The translations under genes and the position numbers were made by a program. Positions 7,170-15,125 of a DNA stretch of 64,000 nt are shown here, piece by piece. The notes below the pieces were generated by a model. It had not been told where the DNA came from, did not search any database, and saw nothing but the letters and a program-made list of their open reading frames with translations. This stretch comes from Anoxybacter fermentans (GTDB lineage: Bacteria > Bacillota > Halanaerobiia > DY22613). Position 1 is the first letter of the stretch. Each line of letters starts with the position of its first letter. Location: NCBI RefSeq assembly GCF_003991135.1, contig NZ_CP016379.1:2294001-2358000 (forward strand). Reading direction: 5' to 3'.

Positions 7170-8408
7170 TTAAAAAATAAAATGATCTCTCTGCTGAAAC
7201 GGTAATATACATAGCTCTGCCTTCAAATTCTGACCAACAACATATCGAGCTGCCATCAATCCTGCACGCTGCCCAAATGTTATAGCAGAATTAACTCCAA
7301 ATGTTCCGACACAACAATCACCACAGCCAAAAACACCAGGCACTTGACATTCACCCCAGACTCCAATAATCAGAAAACCCTGCTTATATATATTAAGTTC
7401 TCCAACAATTTTCGGTAAGCGAGGTCTAAAATATGATATATCAAAAATGCTGTAATTATATACTGGTATCTTACAGTAAACTTTTTCAGTTAGAATTGTA
7501 ACCTGGCTTAAAAAACCCCCTTTTACTTCCCAATCAACTACTTCCCCAATAATTGCCTCTGAAGGTGGTTGTCCAGTATAATCTGGCAATATAACAATAT
7601 TCAATTCTGTAATAAATCTTTTTAAATACTCTATTAAAGGTTTCAACCCTGGCCATGCCCCATACACTGTTACCCGAGAATCTTTAAAGCGTTCAAAAGC
7701 CTTTGGGCTACGCAACATTAAAGAATCAAACACATTGGGCATACCAATAACGGATCTGTAAAATTTATCTGTCATACCAATAGCAAAAATCAAAGCATCC
7801 GTTTTAAAAGAGTTATAAGTTGAAACAATTGTAAAGCTATCTTTAGATTTAATAATTTCAACAACTTCTTCTCTAATTAAAGTTACTCCTGTATCGTTAA
7901 TGACCTGCCATAACCGATCTAATAAGACATCTGAACGAAAGGCCATCCCCGGTAATAAAGACATTGTAATAGAAGGTACTGCAGTTAATAGACCTCCTGG
8001 AGCTGGGTCAAGTAAAATAACCTTTTTTGCAGAACCAGATGTTTGGATATAATTTGCCGCAGTTCCTGCGGCAATAATTCCTGCCGGGCCTGCTCCAATA
8101 ACCACTACACCAATTGAATCCTCTGATAGATCAACATCACTTTTGTTATCACCCATTTTATCAGAAACTGAGGAAAATAGTTTATTTTTGAGAAAAGTGA
8201 TGTCAGCCTTAACCTTATCTTCATCAACATGAAATTCTAACATTATCTGCTTGGCAATTTCTTCATCTAAAAATCCCTTTGAAGCAAGTTCAATGATTCG
8301 AGCCCCTACTTCATTTACAAAAACTTGTTTACCATTATAAAATATCCAACTACCATTTCCTTCCCTAATGAAACGAATTGTATGGTTCCAAAGATTTAAC
8401 TCAGGCAT
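7170..8408 (-). CDS. PqqD-like domain fused to a thioredoxin-reductase-like flavoprotein
   Basis: The first 80 residues resemble PqqD, the peptide-binding domain called RRE (RIIELASKGFLDEEIAKQI, then a helix-rich end). After a short linker comes an FAD/NAD(P)-binding oxidoreductase with VVIGAGPAG (near residue 107) and the C-terminal GVFGCGDCC...SAITFGQRAG segment that binds FAD. The redox CxxC pair of true thioredoxin reductases is absent from the middle of the protein. I chose the ATG at 8408 (AAAGGA nine bases upstream); a GTG at 8414 overlapping the methyltransferase stop is also possible. It probably oxidises or reduces a residue in the peptide bound by its own PqqD domain. This fusion is unusual and is inferred from the sequence alone. 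Confidence 0.78.
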   Translation of the reverse strand: MPELNLWNHTIRFIREGNGSWIFYNGKQVFVNEVGARIIELASKGFLDEEIAKQIMLEFHVDEDKVKADITFLKNKLFSSVSDKMGDNKSDVDLSEDSIGVVVIGAGPAGIIAAGTAANYIQTSGSAKKVILLDPAPGGLLTAVPSITMSLLPGMAFRSDVLLDRLWQVINDTGVTLIREEVVEIIKSKDSFTIVSTYNSFKTDALIFAIGMTDKFYRSVIGMPNVFDSLMLRSPKAFERFKDSRVTVYGAWPGLKPLIEYLKRFITELNIVILPDYTGQPPSEAIIGEVVDWEVKGGFLSQVTILTEKVYCKIPVYNYSIFDISYFRPRLPKIVGELNIYKQGFLIIGVWGECQVPGVFGCGDCCVGTFGVNSAITFGQRAGLMAARYVVGQNLKAELCILPFQQRDHFIF

Positions 8409-8413
8409 TATCA

Positions 8414-9265
8414 CTAATCCTTTCGCCTTAAAACTGCAACATGGAAGAATCCACGATTTTTGTAATATGGGTCATCCATTAATTTAATATTAGCTTCAAC
8501 AAGTTTTTGAGGAAGATTAGGTGAATAATAATACAAGCTCTGGAAATACCAACCCATACTCATTAGAAAAGAATCAAGATGAAATAATGTTCGCCTATCC
8601 ACTATTTCTGCTTTTTCTGCTGACTGTATTAATTGATCAAATTCTCCAGGTGTAACAGGATGAAAGACATTTCCTGCCAAATCCAGAAAATTATCAGTTT
8701 CCATCATTTTTGTAATTTCTGGTACAAATAAAAATCTCCGTACCTGAAAATTGAGCATTGCCAACTTATCAACTGCAGTAATAAATAACAAACTCCCCGG
8801 TTTTAATGCATCTATTAGTCGCCCTAAAAGTTCACGCCTTTCTGCATCAGATAAATACTCAATTGTTTCTAATAGCATTATCGCATCATATTGATTTTTC
8901 TCTGGCATATAGTTCGTTAAATCTCCATATTCAAACTTTACAAGATCTTCTAATCCTAGTTTGATTGCAATATTTTTTCCCATTTCCAAATATTTCTCAG
9001 ACATATCAACAACTTTTATACTGTAGTCATATGCAGCTAGAGAAAAGGCTATTCTACCCCAACCACCACCAGCATCCAATATACTGGTTTTTTTCCCAGA
9101 ACTATTTAAAAATCTATTAATGTAATAACATGTTAAATCAGTATCCACAATTCGTATATTTATATGAACTGAATCCTTATATACTCGAGCCATTGAATTT
9201 AACCAGTCTTCATGATTCGGCCACATCTGCTTAGGATCACAGAATCCCCTCCACTTTTCTTCCAC
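8414..9265 (-). CDS. SAM-dependent methyltransferase (class I)
   Basis: A 283-residue class I methyltransferase. The SAM-binding glycine loop is ILDAGGGWGR, the acidic residue after strand 2 is in VVDMSEKYLEMG, motif II is KFEYGDL, and DAIMLLETIEYLSD forms motif III. It starts with GTG at 9265, whose G is the last base of the radical SAM stop codon (TAGTG), and its own stop abuts the flavoprotein start, so the three genes are translationally coupled. The likely job is N-, O- or C-terminal methylation of the operon's peptide; the fold does not tell which atom is methylated. Confidence 0.86.
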   Translation of the reverse strand: MEEKWRGFCDPKQMWPNHEDWLNSMARVYKDSVHINIRIVDTDLTCYYINRFLNSSGKKTSILDAGGGWGRIAFSLAAYDYSIKVVDMSEKYLEMGKNIAIKLGLEDLVKFEYGDLTNYMPEKNQYDAIMLLETIEYLSDAERRELLGRLIDALKPGSLLFITAVDKLAMLNFQVRRFLFVPEITKMMETDNFLDLAGNVFHPVTPGEFDQLIQSAEKAEIVDRRTLFHLDSFLMSMGWYFQSLYYYSPNLPQKLVEANIKLMDDPYYKNRGFFHVAVLRRKD

Positions 9266-11079
9266 TATTTATCCCCCCCAATAATACTAAATTCTTTTGC
9301 CTTTGTCCAGAATTCGTTTACATCCTGAACTACTTGTTCCTTATCATTTATCTCAAAAGATTTCATCATTTCCTGAATGGTTTCTTCAAAAGTTTTACCT
9401 TCTGCTATACAACGCATAATAAATAATGAAGTATAGTTGCATAATACTACTTGACTTTTCCTACTTGAATAAACTAGATATTTTTCACCAACTTCCTTAA
9501 CTATTAATGGTGAAAGATTATCTGATTCATCATTTTCAAAAAAATTATCTACTTCTGCAATATAGTTTCTAACATTTTCCTCTGGTAAAAACTTAAAGTT
9601 AACTAATTTCTTAAGTAATGATACCAAATCCCTGATTATCCGCTGGAATTCTACATTATACTGTTTTGCAAATTTGGTTCCAATTTGATTTATAGTTAAA
9701 CCCTGAGCAATTTCTTTTAACATTAGATACCCCATCTGATTTATTATTACAAAAGTATTTCCGGGATTCGGATGTTTACCTAGGACGCAGAGAGAATAAC
9801 GAATAAACTTTCTAATTACCCCAAATATCTTAAGTTGTTCCGCTCCAACTTCTGATGCATTTTCCGGAAATTGTGAATATAACTTATTCGCAATATTCGG
9901 AACTAACGGCCAACTTATTTTTTCTTGACGTTCTAACCATTTTGTAACAAGAGGACAGCGAATATCAGGTGCAGCAAGAGATTTTGTTAATCCATAAACT
10001 GAACTTCTACAACCCGACAAGCAGATTGGTTTAATAGGACAACTTTTGCATGGAGAAATGTCATCAGTTTTGATTTGCCTGAGATATGTCAAAAGAAGAG
10101 AACGTTGCCAAACATCAGCCACTCCGTGTTCGATAACATTTCCACAACGTAATTCCGGGAAAGAAGACATCAGATCACATGGATAAAGCCAACCTTCAGA
10201 ATCAATTGCAGCAGTATGTACTCCGGCTATGCAAGTTCCACATTCTGGAGTTATTTCCGGCATTTTTCCCCATAAACGAGGATGATATGCATCTTCTATC
10301 CTATCCAGTAATGGAAGATAGGTTTGCCATCCACCATGCCACATACCTCGAACATTGAATTGTATTTTCCCCTGTTTCATTTTATCAGTAACTTCCCGAA
10401 CAAATTTAGTCCATAAAGGATAAGATATTATTGCTGATTCAGGACTACGTCCCACTGGAGCAAGTTGCCCTACTGTAATACCGGAAGCACCTGCTTCCAC
10501 TACAATCTCAGCGGTCTCCATAAACCAGTTGATAGATTCGGTTGTCACCATAAAGTTAGCTTTAACAGGAACACCAGCTTTACTTAAAATACGGATTGCA
10601 CCAATAGCAGTATCAAAAGCACCGGGAACACCTCTAAAGTGATCGTGTTTATCACGAGGACCATCAACACTAATATGAACACTTATTTCTTTGCCATAGT
10701 TTGATAATTGTTCTGCAAACTCTTCTGTAATATTGGCACCATTTGATGCTATTGAACATGGCATACCCAAATTAATGATTCGGTCAACTATAGTAAGCAA
10801 ATCTGGTCTTAAAGTAGGTTCACCACCAGTTAAAGCAATTGTCAAACATCCAAGATCAGCAAGCTGTTCTACAATCGACAACCACTGATCAGTAGTCAGT
10901 TCTTTCAAATCATCTTCAAGAGCTTTTGCACAGCAATGCGGACATTTTAAGTTACAACGTCGTGTTACTAAAAGTTCAACTTCCGCCGGAGGACCGACAC
11001 AAGTTATAGTTTCATTAAAAGTAAAAACATCAATTTCCCCAGGTTTAGCTCCTGCTGAACAGTTGTTCTGATTTAACAT
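9265..11079 (-). CDS. Radical SAM/SPASM peptide maturase with two C-terminal PqqD-like domains
   Basis: A 604-residue enzyme. The radical SAM cluster motif is C42-NLK-C46-PH-C49, with GGEP at 85-88. A SPASM domain provides further cysteines for auxiliary clusters (C280, C283, C301, C344, C347, C353, C357, C375). Two PqqD-like segments follow at about 432-500 (MLKEIAQGLTINQIGTKFA) and 528-600 (IMRCIAEGKTFEETIQEMM). SPASM enzymes such as PqqE, StrB and the cyclophane synthases install C-C, C-O or C-N bonds in peptides, and the PqqD domain holds the leader. It begins 111 bases after the 29-codon gene with GGAG eight bases upstream of its ATG. It is the probable core enzyme of the peptide pathway. 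Confidence 0.9.
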   Translation of the reverse strand: MLNQNNCSAGAKPGEIDVFTFNETITCVGPPAEVELLVTRRCNLKCPHCCAKALEDDLKELTTDQWLSIVEQLADLGCLTIALTGGEPTLRPDLLTIVDRIINLGMPCSIASNGANITEEFAEQLSNYGKEISVHISVDGPRDKHDHFRGVPGAFDTAIGAIRILSKAGVPVKANFMVTTESINWFMETAEIVVEAGASGITVGQLAPVGRSPESAIISYPLWTKFVREVTDKMKQGKIQFNVRGMWHGGWQTYLPLLDRIEDAYHPRLWGKMPEITPECGTCIAGVHTAAIDSEGWLYPCDLMSSFPELRCGNVIEHGVADVWQRSLLLTYLRQIKTDDISPCKSCPIKPICLSGCRSSVYGLTKSLAAPDIRCPLVTKWLERQEKISWPLVPNIANKLYSQFPENASEVGAEQLKIFGVIRKFIRYSLCVLGKHPNPGNTFVIINQMGYLMLKEIAQGLTINQIGTKFAKQYNVEFQRIIRDLVSLLKKLVNFKFLPEENVRNYIAEVDNFFENDESDNLSPLIVKEVGEKYLVYSSRKSQVVLCNYTSLFIMRCIAEGKTFEETIQEMMKSFEINDKEQVVQDVNEFWTKAKEFSIIGGDK

Positions 11080-11115
11080 ACTATCAGCTCCAATTTTTTA
11101 TTTTAATTATAATTT

Positions 11116-11136
11116 AATTGGAAAGAAGGATCTTGT
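11116..11136. repeat. Inverted repeat arm downstream of the precursor gene
   Basis: AATTGGAAAGAAGGATCTTG plus one base is the inverted partner of 11359-11379, with one mismatch in 21 bases. The arm lies between the 29-codon gene and the radical SAM gene. Confidence 0.8.
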
Positions 11137-11190
11137 ACAAATTACGGTCTCTATAGATCAAATTCTAGTTAAAAATTTAAATATCATAGT

Positions 11191-11280
11191 TTATGTTAAA
11201 TCAGACTCTTTATCCCACATAGTGGTAAAAGCAACAGTTGGGGATTCGTATTCAATTATTGGTTTTTCATATTTCCTCAT
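11191..11280 (-). CDS. Candidate RiPP precursor peptide, 29 residues
   Basis: An ATG at 11280 is preceded by AAAAAAGGAGGTG with AGGAGGT seven bases from the start, the best ribosome binding site in this region. The frame encodes 29 residues and ends with TAA at 11191-11193. The N-terminus MRKYEKPIIEYE looks like a short leader of the PqqA kind (basic and aromatic, with KP and then hydrophobic residues). The C-terminal part FTTMWDKE carries one Trp, one Phe and several Thr, Asp, Lys and Ser but no Cys. The stop lies 111 bases before the radical SAM/SPASM start in the same direction. The single WDK triplet fits the aromatic-X-X substrate motif of three-residue cyclophane synthases. No homologue can be looked up here, so the call rests on the ribosome site, position and composition. 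Confidence 0.75.
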   Translation of the reverse strand: MRKYEKPIIEYESPTVAFTTMWDKESDLT

Positions 11281-11309
11281 TTAAAACACCTCCTTTTTTA
11301 AGTTGAAAA

Positions 11310-11344
11310 TAAGAAAAGATTATAAAAAATATAATCTTTTCTTA
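11310..11344 (-). promoter_or_regulatory. Perfect 15-bp hairpin in front of the precursor ribosome site
   Basis: TAAGAAAAGATTATA (11310-11324) and its exact reverse complement (11330-11344) surround five bases. Read on the minus strand the hairpin is followed by TTTTCAAC and then by the AGGAGGT of the 29-codon gene. It could be a weak AT-rich terminator or attenuator, or protect the 5' end of the short message. Confidence 0.5.
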
Positions 11345-11358
11345 TATATATAGTTTAA

Positions 11359-11379
11359 ACAAGATCCTCCTTTCCAATT
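11359..11379. repeat. Inverted repeat arm upstream of the precursor gene
   Basis: This arm (ACAAGATCCTCCTTTCCAAT plus one base) is the inverted partner of 11116-11136. Together the arms enclose 222 bases that hold the hairpin and the whole 29-codon gene. The right arm contains a Shine-Dalgarno-like GGAAAGGAGG when read on the minus strand. Confidence 0.8.
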
Positions 11380-11424: not shown

Positions 11425-11609
11425 ATCTATAATTAATATTGTAAAAAAAGCATTTTCTAGCTCTGTTGAATTAGTTGCGAACTAAAAACCAAAGAAAGGA
11501 GTCCAGCAAATGCAAAATAATAATATCATAAAATTTCTTGATTTGCCAGACATTATCGCAACCGAAATTATTTCAACGACGGACAGGTATATTTTTATTG
11601 CTGAAGCAA
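11425..11609 (+). mobile_element. 5' remnant of an ISL3 element
   Basis: The sequence is nearly the same as the upstream end and first 30-odd codons of the intact ISL3 copy at 56379-57773: end sequence CTATAATTAAT, then GTTGCGAACTAAAAACC, GGAGTCCAGCAAATGCA, and a start reading IIKFLDLPDIIATEII. Homology stops abruptly after the codons for AEAK at 11609, where another IS-like end begins. It is a fragment and cannot move by itself. Confidence 0.85.
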
Positions 11610-11612
11610 AGA

Positions 11613-12275
11613 TTATATAGCCCCCCTAATAAATTTGGAGAAACTGTGTTTAAATGACATAATTAACTTAAAGGGGGTTTTAATTATGAAACGTAAAAAG
11701 TATTCTGATGAATTTAAACAACAAATTCCTGAAGAATGTAGATTAATAAGTAATGTTGCTTTGATTGCTCGTCGTCATGAAATTTCTAAGAATACAATAT
11801 ATACCTGAATTAAAGCCAATCGTAAAAAAGGTTCTACTAAATCTTTTCCCAGAGATAAAAAACAATATCAAGAAATAGTTAAAAGATTGGAAAAGGTAAG
11901 TACTGAAAATGATATGTTAAAAAAGCTTCTTACTGAAAAAGAATTGGAGTTGGCTGTTCTTAGAGATCTCAGAGATATGGTAAACCCTCAATTACCGACA
12001 AAGTCATAATAGCTAAAAAATGGATAGAACAGGGATATAAAGCCTGTCTTATTCTTAACTTTATCCCCATCAACTTATTATGAAAATATTTTAAAAAACT
12101 GAAAAAACAGGCTAATAACTCAAAATCTTCAGGAAGGCCTATACCTGGTTATTCCTTAACAAATAAAGGGATAAAAGTTCCCGATGAACAGATTAAAGAG
12201 TGACTGTGTGAACTTATTGCAGGTGATGGATTTTCAAAGAGCGTTATGTTTCTTGAGAATTCATCTGCATAAAAT
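11613..12275 (+). pseudogene. IS3-family transposase remnant (orfA and start of orfB)
   Basis: From 11686 the sequence reads MKRKKYSDEFKQQI, a typical IS3-family OrfA start with a helix-turn-helix. A TGA replaces the expected Trp of the NTIYTW motif, and the frame goes on to the coiled-coil part KDKKQYQEIVKRLEK and NDMLKKLL. The OrfB part begins with VIIAKKWIEQGYKA and has two further stop codons before homology is lost near 12275. The DDE catalytic core is missing. The left end CCCCCTAATAAA joins directly to the ISL3 fragment. Confidence 0.78.
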
Positions 12276-12549
12276 TATAGCAGTTAAATTTTAATTTGTC
12301 AATTATTTTATTTATATATATATAAGTGAATTTCTTAAAAACAAAACTTAATATATCAACATTTTTCAAAACAAAAGAAAAACTTCACCCATATTATGTC
12401 GCATATATTAGTAACCAAACCAAAAGTCGGCATAAAGTGAAATCACAAAGGATTTTACAATTTTGATGGAATACCAATGTGTAAGGGTGTGGATACGAAA
12501 TGGTATATTGGGGACATGAAAAAGGTAATAATAAGTTTACAACCTCTAA
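12276..12549. other. Non-coding stretch after the IS scars
   Basis: No gene with a usable ribosome site was found on either strand. A plus-strand stretch around 12448-12520 can be read as GFYNFDGIPMC...KWYIGD, which looks like a shred of a further transposase, but it has no start and is too short to name. Confidence 0.4.
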
Positions 12550-13335
12550 TTAACTACTTGCACTTGTATAAAATCTCAAAGCCAAATTCCAGAACCATTT
12601 AGAAACCCCAAAAAGTAAAATTGTTAAAACAACACTGATGAAAACATACTTAACTTTAATACCTTCTATAAGTATTTGGGCAGGATAATTTATAATTATA
12701 ATGATAGGTATCACAAAACTGAAAATAAATTTGATTCCACCTTTAAAAACCGAAGCTGGATATTTACCATATGAAATTATTTCCATTATAATAAAATAAA
12801 GCCCTTCTACTTTTATTGTCCAGATTACCACACTCATAAAAATCAATAATAATGCATACCCAAGCAAAAGACCATTAATTAGCAAAATTATATAAACAGC
12901 ATAATCAAAAAAACCCGGGTGAATATTTAATTGTTTTAAAGCATGAAATAAAAGTGGTAAAGCTGCAAAACTACTTAAAATATGTCCAAAATTAATATAT
13001 CGGGTTGATATATAAAATTGTGTACTAATTGGCTTTAACAAAATATAATCCAGATCTCCCTTATTTACATAATGTTGTAAACCCGGCAAATTGTTTGCAA
13101 ATAATCCGTAAAAAAGACCTGTGAAAATTTGATTTGTTGCTATTAAAACAATTACCTGAAATTTATTCCAATCTCCAATGGCATTAACATTAGCAAAAAT
13201 AGCATTATACAGTGTCAAATTAATTAAAAAAAATAAAAGTCCTTCACCTAAAGTAACCAGAAAATTTTCTTTAAAATAAATATCGCGGGTTAAATTGTTT
13301 TTTAAAAAACACCAGTATAACCGGATATATTGCAT
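12550..13335 (-). CDS. ABC-2 family permease, second subunit
   Basis: About 261 residues with six predicted membrane segments, of the ABC2_membrane_6 (DUF990) type that works as a heterodimer with a sister permease. The start is set at the ATG (MQYIRLYWCF) at 13335 because GGAGGG lies eight bases upstream; the longer frame from 13350 would use the ribosome site itself as codons. The stop of the preceding permease lies just upstream. With 13340-14134 and 14148-15125 it forms a complete exporter. Such COG4586/4587/3694 systems have few known substrates. It could belong to the peptide locus, which follows in the same direction beyond IS scars. Confidence 0.85.
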   Translation of the reverse strand: MQYIRLYWCFLKNNLTRDIYFKENFLVTLGEGLLFFLINLTLYNAIFANVNAIGDWNKFQVIVLIATNQIFTGLFYGLFANNLPGLQHYVNKGDLDYILLKPISTQFYISTRYINFGHILSSFAALPLLFHALKQLNIHPGFFDYAVYIILLINGLLLGYALLLIFMSVVIWTIKVEGLYFIIMEIISYGKYPASVFKGGIKFIFSFVIPIIIIINYPAQILIEGIKVKYVFISVVLTILLFGVSKWFWNLALRFYTSASS

Positions 13336-13339
13336 CTTC

Positions 13340-14134
13340 TTACCCTCCAATTGCTCTATAAATTCTAATCCCTTTTTTCCAAATTAGTTTACATATCAGA
13401 TGAAAAATCAATATCCACATTAGCAAAACTACAAAATGTTGAGCTAAGTTTACTGTTGTTACCTGGCCCAGGTAAATTTTAATAGGAAAATATACCATAT
13501 AAGAAAAAGGAGTAAATTGTAATAAATATTTCAGCTGGCCCGGATACCAATCTAAAGGAATAATACTACCTGAAAAAAGCTGTAAAACTAAAGCCTGAAA
13601 ATAAAATAACCCTTCAGTATGTTCCCACCAAAAAGCAATAAGACCTAATAAAAAGGAAAAATAAAAACCCATTATACTGGCCAAAAATAAACTTATCAAA
13701 AAAATAAGCAAATTTAAAATTGAAAACACAGGTAGCAAAAGACCAGGCAAAAATATAAACATCATCGAAAATATTATCAAAATCAATGTAATTAATACCA
13801 CTTTATCAGATAAATGAAAGGATAAGTGAAGCCACATGTATTTGATAGGTTTCAGGACATGACTATTAATTTTACCATCTCTAATCTCTTCTGAAACTAC
13901 CCACGATATTTCAGAATGAAGTAATGTAGATAATAAATAAGCTAAAATATAATATGTAAAAATCTGATTAAAACTCATACCATTTATAATAGAATGTTTT
14001 GAATAAATCTCTTTCCATAAAAAAAACAGAGCAAATAGAGGTAAAATTCCTGATAAAAGAGTCAAAAAGAAATTAAGCCGATATTGCAACAAATTTCTAA
14101 TTTTAATCAAAAATAATGCTATATATTTTCTCAT
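13340..14134 (-). CDS. ABC-2 family permease, first subunit
   Basis: About 264 residues with six hydrophobic stretches, starting MRKYIALFLIKIRN. The ATG at 14134 has GAGGGG nine bases upstream, and the gene follows the ATPase with a gap of about 13 bases. It resembles the partner permease of ABC2_membrane_6 systems (COG4587-like) and carries the conserved amphipathic entry helix followed by the first membrane span. Together with the next gene it should form the heterodimeric channel of the exporter. The transported compound cannot be told from sequence. Confidence 0.84.
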   Translation of the reverse strand: MRKYIALFLIKIRNLLQYRLNFFLTLLSGILPLFALFFLWKEIYSKHSIINGMSFNQIFTYYILAYLLSTLLHSEISWVVSEEIRDGKINSHVLKPIKYMWLHLSFHLSDKVVLITLILIIFSMMFIFLPGLLLPVFSILNLLIFLISLFLASIMGFYFSFLLGLIAFWWEHTEGLFYFQALVLQLFSGSIIPLDWYPGQLKYLLQFTPFSYMVYFPIKIYLGQVTTVNLAQHFVVLLMWILIFHLICKLIWKKGIRIYRAIGG

Positions 14135-14147
14135 ACCTGTCAACCCC

Positions 14148-15125
14148 TCAATTATAAGCTCTTCCTAAATATTCCTCGAGAATATTATCTATAGGTACAT
14201 CTTCTACCACCAAATTTTCTATTTGAGTATTTACCGCAGAAATTTCCTGCAAAAATCTACTAATTAACTGATTAGGAATTTTATATGTTGCTTTAAATAC
14301 ATCAGATTCTAACAACATTTCATTCCATGTATCTGGTAATATTCTTAATTTTTTTGCAAAAACAGTTACCTTTTTATATAATTGATGCTCCTTTATAAAT
14401 TCACTCAGTGAATTGTCGTATATTTTTTCACCTTGATTAAGAATAACAATCCGGTCAGCCAGATTAGTTATGTCCTGAATATAGTGACTGGTAATTATTA
14501 CTGTTGCATTATTTTCCTGCACATATTTTTTAATAAATTGACGTATCATTTTCTGTGAAATTATATCCAATCCTAATGTCGGTTCATCCAGAAAAATAAC
14601 TTTTGGAAAATGTAATAAAGAATTTATCAGTTCACATTTCATCCTCTGACCAAGAGAAAGATTTCGCACCTGAGTATTTAGCAAATCCTCAATATTAAAA
14701 AGATTAACTAAGTACTCCAAATTATGCTTATACTCTTTATTACTAATCTGATATATTTCCTTAGTTAAGTTAAATGACTCAATGGGCGGCAAATCCCACC
14801 ACAATTGATTTTTATTTCCCATAACCATCGTAATCTGTTTTTTAAATTCCGGTAAACGTTCAAAAGGTCGATAACCTAAAACACTAATTGTTCCACACGT
14901 TGGATAAAGCAAACCTGTCAAAAGTTTTAATAAAGTAGTTTTGCCAGCACCATTAGCCCCAAGTAATCCAACAATTTCTTTCTCATTTACTGTTAAACTT
15001 ATGTCTTTTACAGCCTGGATTGTTTTTGTGTTTGAATAAAATAATCCTTTTAATGCACCTTTAATTCCAGGTTCTGTTTGTTTAATCCGATACTCTTTAC
15101 TTACTCTTTCAACCTTTATTACCAC
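14148..15125 (-). CDS. ABC transporter ATP-binding subunit (COG4586-like)
   Basis: A 325-residue ATPase with Walker A GANGAGKTTLLK, an extended Q-loop region with NKNQLWWDLPP, the signature LSLGQRMKCE, Walker B VIFLDEPTLGLD and switch TSHYIQD. The WWDLP segment after the Q-loop and the LSLGQ signature are typical of the COG4586 group, which always pairs with two permeases of the kind encoded next. It is the first gene of a three-gene operon with its own promoter at 15355-15383. Role: energises an exporter of unknown substrate. Confidence 0.88.
   Translation of the reverse strand: MVIKVERVSKEYRIKQTEPGIKGALKGLFYSNTKTIQAVKDISLTVNEKEIVGLLGANGAGKTTLLKLLTGLLYPTCGTISVLGYRPFERLPEFKKQITMVMGNKNQLWWDLPPIESFNLTKEIYQISNKEYKHNLEYLVNLFNIEDLLNTQVRNLSLGQRMKCELINSLLHFPKVIFLDEPTLGLDIISQKMIRQFIKKYVQENNATVIITSHYIQDITNLADRIVILNQGEKIYDNSLSEFIKEHQLYKKVTVFAKKLRILPDTWNEMLLESDVFKATYKIPNQLISRFLQEISAVNTQIENLVVEDVPIDNILEEYLGRAYN

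Follow-up and report, generated by a model that had tools for sequence, protein, structure and literature searches.

The gene at 11191-11280 of the window (by which we mean the whole stretch of 64,000 nucleotides analysed here) very probably encodes the precursor of a RiPP matured by a SPASM enzyme. We lean towards its WDK triplet as the site where Trp and Lys become joined by a C-C bond; the flavin enzyme and the methyltransferase of the same operon probably tailor the product further. The RiPP assignment of this 29-aa peptide is strong: a short precursor adjoins a radical SAM/SPASM gene with a leader-binding domain. The bond type, the mass shift and the function of the product, as discussed below, are presumptive. 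The features of the precursor are as follows.

11191..11280, minus strand: RiPP precursor gene, 29 aa, MRKYEKPIIEYESPTVAFTTMWDKESDLT (open reading frame, perfect Shine-Dalgarno sequence, head of a radical SAM operon, paralogous precursor in the same genome)
11254..11271, minus strand: leader recognition motif YEKPII, residues 4-9, of the form YxxPx[LVIFA] (sequence and published motif)
11209..11217, minus strand: WDK, residues 22-24, proposed crosslink site (WDK-[E/D]-S common to the paralogous precursor)

The initial annotation described a peptide with one WDK and no Cys, which is confirmed by the open reading frame call and its translation, the perfect Shine-Dalgarno sequence and the operon position. 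The sequence AAGGAGGTG lies upstream of the start in the arrangement AAAAAAGGAGGTG-TTTTAA-ATG, the context of the ATG being AAAAAAGGAGGTGTTTTAAATG; 111 nt on the same strand separate the frame from the downstream radical SAM gene, and the peptide sequence is single-copy in the 3.56-Mb genome. Since the frame is the first in a tightly spaced operon, we do not regard it as an isolated chance ORF. The earlier statement that the absence of Cys excludes thioether chemistry holds for this peptide. The N-terminal YEKP-hydrophobic part had been proposed as the leader for PqqD-like domains, and this is supported, because YEKPII is an exact fit to YxxPx[L/V/I/F/A], a motif of the RRE-bound leaders of lasso and related peptides; a W/Y/LxxP-type leader motif is described for PqqD-like RREs (PMC13381572, PMC12710340).

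The precursor gene is also enclosed by repeats.

11116..11379, no strand assigned: 29-nt inverted repeats enclosing the precursor gene (86%; fold z -4.6; arms single in the genome)

The arms lie at 11116-11144 and 11351-11379, and the region folds better than its shuffles, so to speak of an RNA structure is possibly justified; an Rfam search of the region gave no match. A multi-copy element was considered as the identity of these repeats and rejected, the arms being absent elsewhere in the genome. A 16-bp perfect AT-rich hairpin (11309-11345) directly precedes the ribosome site of the precursor. Perfect complementarity of 14 nt exists between the precursor ORF at its 3' end (11192-11205) and the start of the maturase ORF (11067-11080), which could couple the translation of both.

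In the operon, the precursor is followed by a radical SAM enzyme, a methyltransferase and an oxidoreductase, the stop and start codons of the later genes overlapping.

9265..11079, minus strand: radical SAM/SPASM maturase, 604 aa, seven-Cys SPASM, motif WQTYLPL (PF04055 6.8e-28, PF13186 6.9e-8; best NCBIfam model WgkB)
9598..9759, minus strand: first PqqD-type RRE domain of the maturase, residues 441-494 (PF05402 2.6e-12, two stretches)
9289..9504, minus strand: second PqqD-type RRE domain of the maturase, approximately residues 526-597, boundaries by eye (second PF05402 stretch; model)
8414..9265, minus strand: class I SAM methyltransferase, 283 aa (PF13649 1e-13)
7170..8414, minus strand: flavin/NAD(P) oxidoreductase, thioredoxin-reductase-like, with an N-terminal PqqD-like domain, 414 aa (PF07992 6.4e-11; PF05402 2.8e-4)
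8196..8333, minus strand: PqqD-like domain of the oxidoreductase, residues 28-73 (PF05402 21.6 bits against a gathering score of 23.4)

All seven SPASM cysteines of the maturase are present (C283, C301, C344, C347, C353, C357, C375), and residues 526-596 of its model are arranged as strand-strand-strand-helix-helix-helix. The oxidoreductase matches TrxR chains in the PDB at 1e-7. Its PqqD-like domain resembles the two maturase RREs (z 6.0 and 5.5 above shuffles), and from this likeness of sequence leader binding is probable for two or more enzymes of the operon. In the class (59 genomes), the flavoprotein had no close relative; its fold, predicted without an alignment, has a pLDDT of only 32.

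WgkB is the best NCBIfam model for the window enzyme (160.7 bits) and for both SPASM enzymes of a second operon described below (160.0 and 131.7 bits), all far below the curated cut-off of 650 bits (NF050035). This preference is not merely a property of the genome, because two other peptide radical SAM enzymes of it are matched first by mycofactocin or SkfB models. Considering that the scores fall so far short and that the AhbD heme-enzyme model comes close (147.9 bits, NCBIfam), we read the WgkB match as a lead and not as membership. An AlphaFold model of the maturase, built with 28 distant relatives, is confident in the core and weaker in the C-terminal part; Foldseek ranks SuiB first for it, then SkfB and PqqE. 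SuiB is a Lys-Trp cyclase, and the ranking is consistent with a Trp-Lys cyclase, though not specific to one.

With the maturase as query, this genome yielded a further SPASM radical SAM enzyme, about 30-32% identical to it (L215, G000:C1:3304183-). The 84-nt ORF directly upstream of it, with a good Shine-Dalgarno sequence, encodes a 27-aa precursor, MKKWIVPKADFVSGRWLKWDKDSVVEE, and the alignment of the two precursors has M1, K3, P7 and W-D-K-x-S in common. The L215 operon is thus similar to that of the window in its W/YxxP leader precursor, WDK-[E/D]-S, SPASM enzyme and PqqD. It differs in having two W-x-K triplets (WLK and WDK) and two SPASM enzymes, where the window has one and one, as well as a B12-binding radical SAM protein, a discrete PqqD and an MFS transporter, and in having no methyltransferase or flavoprotein.

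A W-x-K triplet appears in 10% of shuffles of the precursor peptide and is not rare by itself; the weight of WDK comes from the recurrence of WDK-[E/D]-S in the paralogous precursor. WDK appears in both peptides in 0.06% of joint shuffles, and a stretch with four of five residues identical between both shuffled precursors in 3% of trials; the latter is the fair figure, as the motif is not presupposed, and on it, with composition kept, a shared motif would be only moderately improbable by chance. A genome-wide scan for WDK[DE]S, a pattern drawn from the two peptides, found both precursors and one more site; all that it establishes is the lack of a third copy. The additional match was rejected as a precursor, since it sits among Rnf-like genes and is a chance site. 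Judging from these sequences, WDK is a moderately supported candidate for the crosslink site.

The initial annotation suggested a cyclophane or similar C-C crosslink there. The suggestion stands in that the peptide is very probably a SPASM substrate and WDK recurs as WDKDS in the paralogous precursor; the cited precedent, streptide, was wrong, because Lys precedes Trp by four residues there, while the W-x-K of tryglysin and darobactin fit. In W-G-K, WgkB forms two C-C bonds between Trp and Lys, with a loss of 4 Da (PMC8326336, PMC8092268); darobactin has Trp joined to Lys in W-S-K (PMC9055067); and the enzymes of triceptides link Trp with an Arg, Asn or Asp at position i+2 (PMC11002830). Because of the first case, the -2 Da expected earlier is not the sole expectation: -4 Da is a real possibility from the WgkB lead, missed by the earlier reader, and we make no firm choice between the two.

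A plasmid search with the L215 enzyme gave relatives in Deinococcus radiodurans (36%) and on a Streptomyces plasmid (34%). The candidate Streptomyces precursor, METFAPSFEAPVGTDAMRWPRHTS, ends in MRWPRHTS, i.e., has W-P-R; the candidate D. radiodurans precursor, MHFKPTFEVMETNPCNGTVLRRPVVV, located before an inserted IS element, has no Trp. Trp is therefore apparently not universal in the candidate precursors beside distant relatives. The initial annotation had named a homologous precursor lacking Trp as evidence against its proposal, and such a peptide was found only in this distant relative. Some SPASM cysteines are missing from both enzymes, which may therefore differ in chemistry. P-x-x-[E/D] is present in all four aligned leaders (window, L215, Streptomyces and D. 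radiodurans). W[EQ]xYLPL is common to the window enzyme, the first L215 enzyme (r1) and the D. radiodurans and Streptomyces homologues, is degenerate in the second L215 enzyme (r2), and is absent from the other 31 radical SAM enzymes compared. In the tree, the four relatives group together at 99/96, and the window enzyme has no supported placement. The D. radiodurans operon (plasmid CP1, L226 4797-13113) is RiPP-like and is not recognised in the annotation; it contains a short peptide, an IS5 insertion, a radical SAM gene, a 113-aa protein, a B12-type radical SAM gene, a carbamoyltransferase and TldD/PmbA.

Maturase orthologues were found neither in the class (59 genomes) nor in a phylum sample of 398 genomes, a second, overlapping phylum sample or viral contigs. 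In a scan of genome contigs with a patterned alignment, the only matches were other radical SAM enzymes, with identities of at most about 30%, those inspected being heme-type; such alignments contained altered copies of the query, used only to steer the search patterns, and are not biological data. A profile search gave one match in the phylum (G071), near which no precursor was found. The rarity of the maturase and its operon is provisional, as the searches cover samples of genomes.

It is also conceivable, with a minor but real chance of being right, that the peptide is a radical SAM RiPP changed elsewhere or in another way: for instance by a crosslink at Phe18 or Tyr11, by epimerisation, by Calpha-Cbeta chemistry at Thr19 or Thr20, or by a decarboxylative or oxidative change confined to Trp, with WDK as part of a follower or export signal. 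SPASM enzymes do perform many reactions, NCBIfam models for several functions score alike without any reaching its cut-off, and the Trp-less D. radiodurans candidate adjoins a homologue; nonetheless, WDK-x-S is the sole core stretch common to the paralogous precursor, and W-x-K is the known substrate motif of two characterised systems.

We therefore keep to a Trp-Lys crosslink at WDK, for which the following course can be proposed. The YEKPII segment would dock on the PqqD-type RRE domains of the maturase, which, via SAM and reductive iron-sulfur chemistry, would connect the Trp22 indole to Lys24 by a C-C crosslink, either at the side chain of the lysine or at its alpha carbon. The ring would be of the W-x-K type of tryglysin and darobactin, with -4 Da if tryglysin-like and -2 Da if triceptide- or darobactin-like. 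The PqqD-bearing flavoprotein and the methyltransferase would act afterwards (or before) on the leader-bound peptide; the leader would then be cut and the product exported, probably by an ABC2_membrane_6-type transporter. The bond atoms, the order of steps, the mass shift, the export and the function are in this scheme what we infer.

The flavoprotein invites two further proposals. One, which we consider unlikely, is a W-x-K RiPP family outside streptococci in which the RRE-bearing flavoenzyme oxidises the crosslinked Trp unit, giving a novel kind of Trp/Lys-derived redox-active or polycyclic peptide. The other, quite improbable, is that a small redox cofactor of the PQQ or mycofactocin sort is made from the peptide: the radical SAM enzyme would crosslink or trim it, and the flavoprotein and methyltransferase would turn the excised Trp/Lys-derived unit into a redox-active group. 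It is uncommon for a flavin oxidoreductase to carry a leader-binding-like domain, and its presence agrees with a leader-bound intermediate being oxidised; mycofactocin and PqqE models are also among the NCBIfam matches. However, the operon has no dehydrogenase or peptidase set of the PQQ/mycofactocin type, the precursor has neither E-x3-Y nor a C-terminal VY, and so rare a system would be untypical of a cofactor.

A possible exporter lies on the other side of the precursor.

12550..15125, minus strand: possible exporter, two ABC2_membrane_6 permeases and an ABC ATPase (same transporter type beside the L216 radical SAM gene)

It is cut off from the precursor by IS debris at 11444-12290, comprising the truncated end of an element of about 40 copies and a degenerate IS3-type orfA. 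From 12302, a perfect TTGACA-17-TATAAT is directed toward the precursor. The transporter may be linked to the 29-aa peptide; its ATPase is 38% identical to that of L216 (2816-6668, G000:C1:3087000-), where a SPASM radical SAM gene adjoins an ABC2_membrane_6 pair and an ABC ATPase, and near which no precursor was recognised. Elsewhere in the genome (L217 3599-5080, G000:C1:3196000-), a Cys-rich 40-aa peptide, MNTPAYKGKKIAGCVGCAVVGLNPGLVSFPCIPWYVAAAV, a candidate sactipeptide, lies upstream of an SkfB-like radical SAM gene with a PqqD domain. That the cluster is decayed, insertion sequences having severed the precursor operon from the transporter so that the peptide is no longer made, is even less probable than the cofactor proposal, for despite the debris and the orthologues not found, none of the four ORFs is broken, their starts overlap, the Shine-Dalgarno sequence is perfect and no cluster cysteine is missing.

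The crosslinking of W-x-K by radical SAM enzymes is characterised in few systems, and two of the products are antibacterial: darobactin, and tryglysin, which inhibits streptococci. Here, two paralogous systems of one genome coincide in the WDK spot and differ in their accessory enzymes, and with the tandem-RRE maturase and the PqqD-bearing flavoenzyme the recruitment of a single leader by several enzymes becomes open to test.

Among the known systems, sactipeptides, ranthipeptides and SCIFF have Cys in the core, which the window peptide does not. The RRE-bound YxxPx[LVIFA] leader is shared with the lasso/LPP leaders of Bacillota, although the operon proteins include no lasso cyclase, protease or kinase. 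Streptide (SuiB, StrB) is similar in its Lys-Trp C-C bond formed by a SPASM radical SAM enzyme, and SuiB is the top structural match; its motif is, however, K-x3-W, whereas residue 18 of the window peptide is Phe, and its KxxxW model TIGR04080 is not among the best 25 NCBIfam matches of the window enzyme. Darobactin and the triceptides share an aromatic-to-i+2 linkage (Trp-Lys, Trp-Arg and Trp-Asn/Asp included), and W22-D23-K24 has the form aromatic-x-residue; among the same best 25 matches, the only triceptide-type maturase model is dynobactin DynA (69 bits). Tryglysin (WgkABC of streptococci) is similar in its short precursor, W-x-K near the C-terminus, SPASM radical SAM enzyme and PqqD-type RRE partner, and in WgkB being the best NCBIfam model of the window maturase. 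The middle residue is G there and D here, with W-D-K at residues 22-24 of 29; WgkC is discrete, whereas the RREs of the window are fused in tandem to the maturase and only the L215 operon has a discrete PqqD; no Rgg/SHP is seen, and the methyltransferase and the PqqD-flavoprotein are additional. Fusions of RREs to other enzymes, dehydrogenases included, are already known (PMC7470986), and the combination of a tandem-RRE maturase with a PqqD-bearing flavoprotein is what is new here within a known RiPP type.
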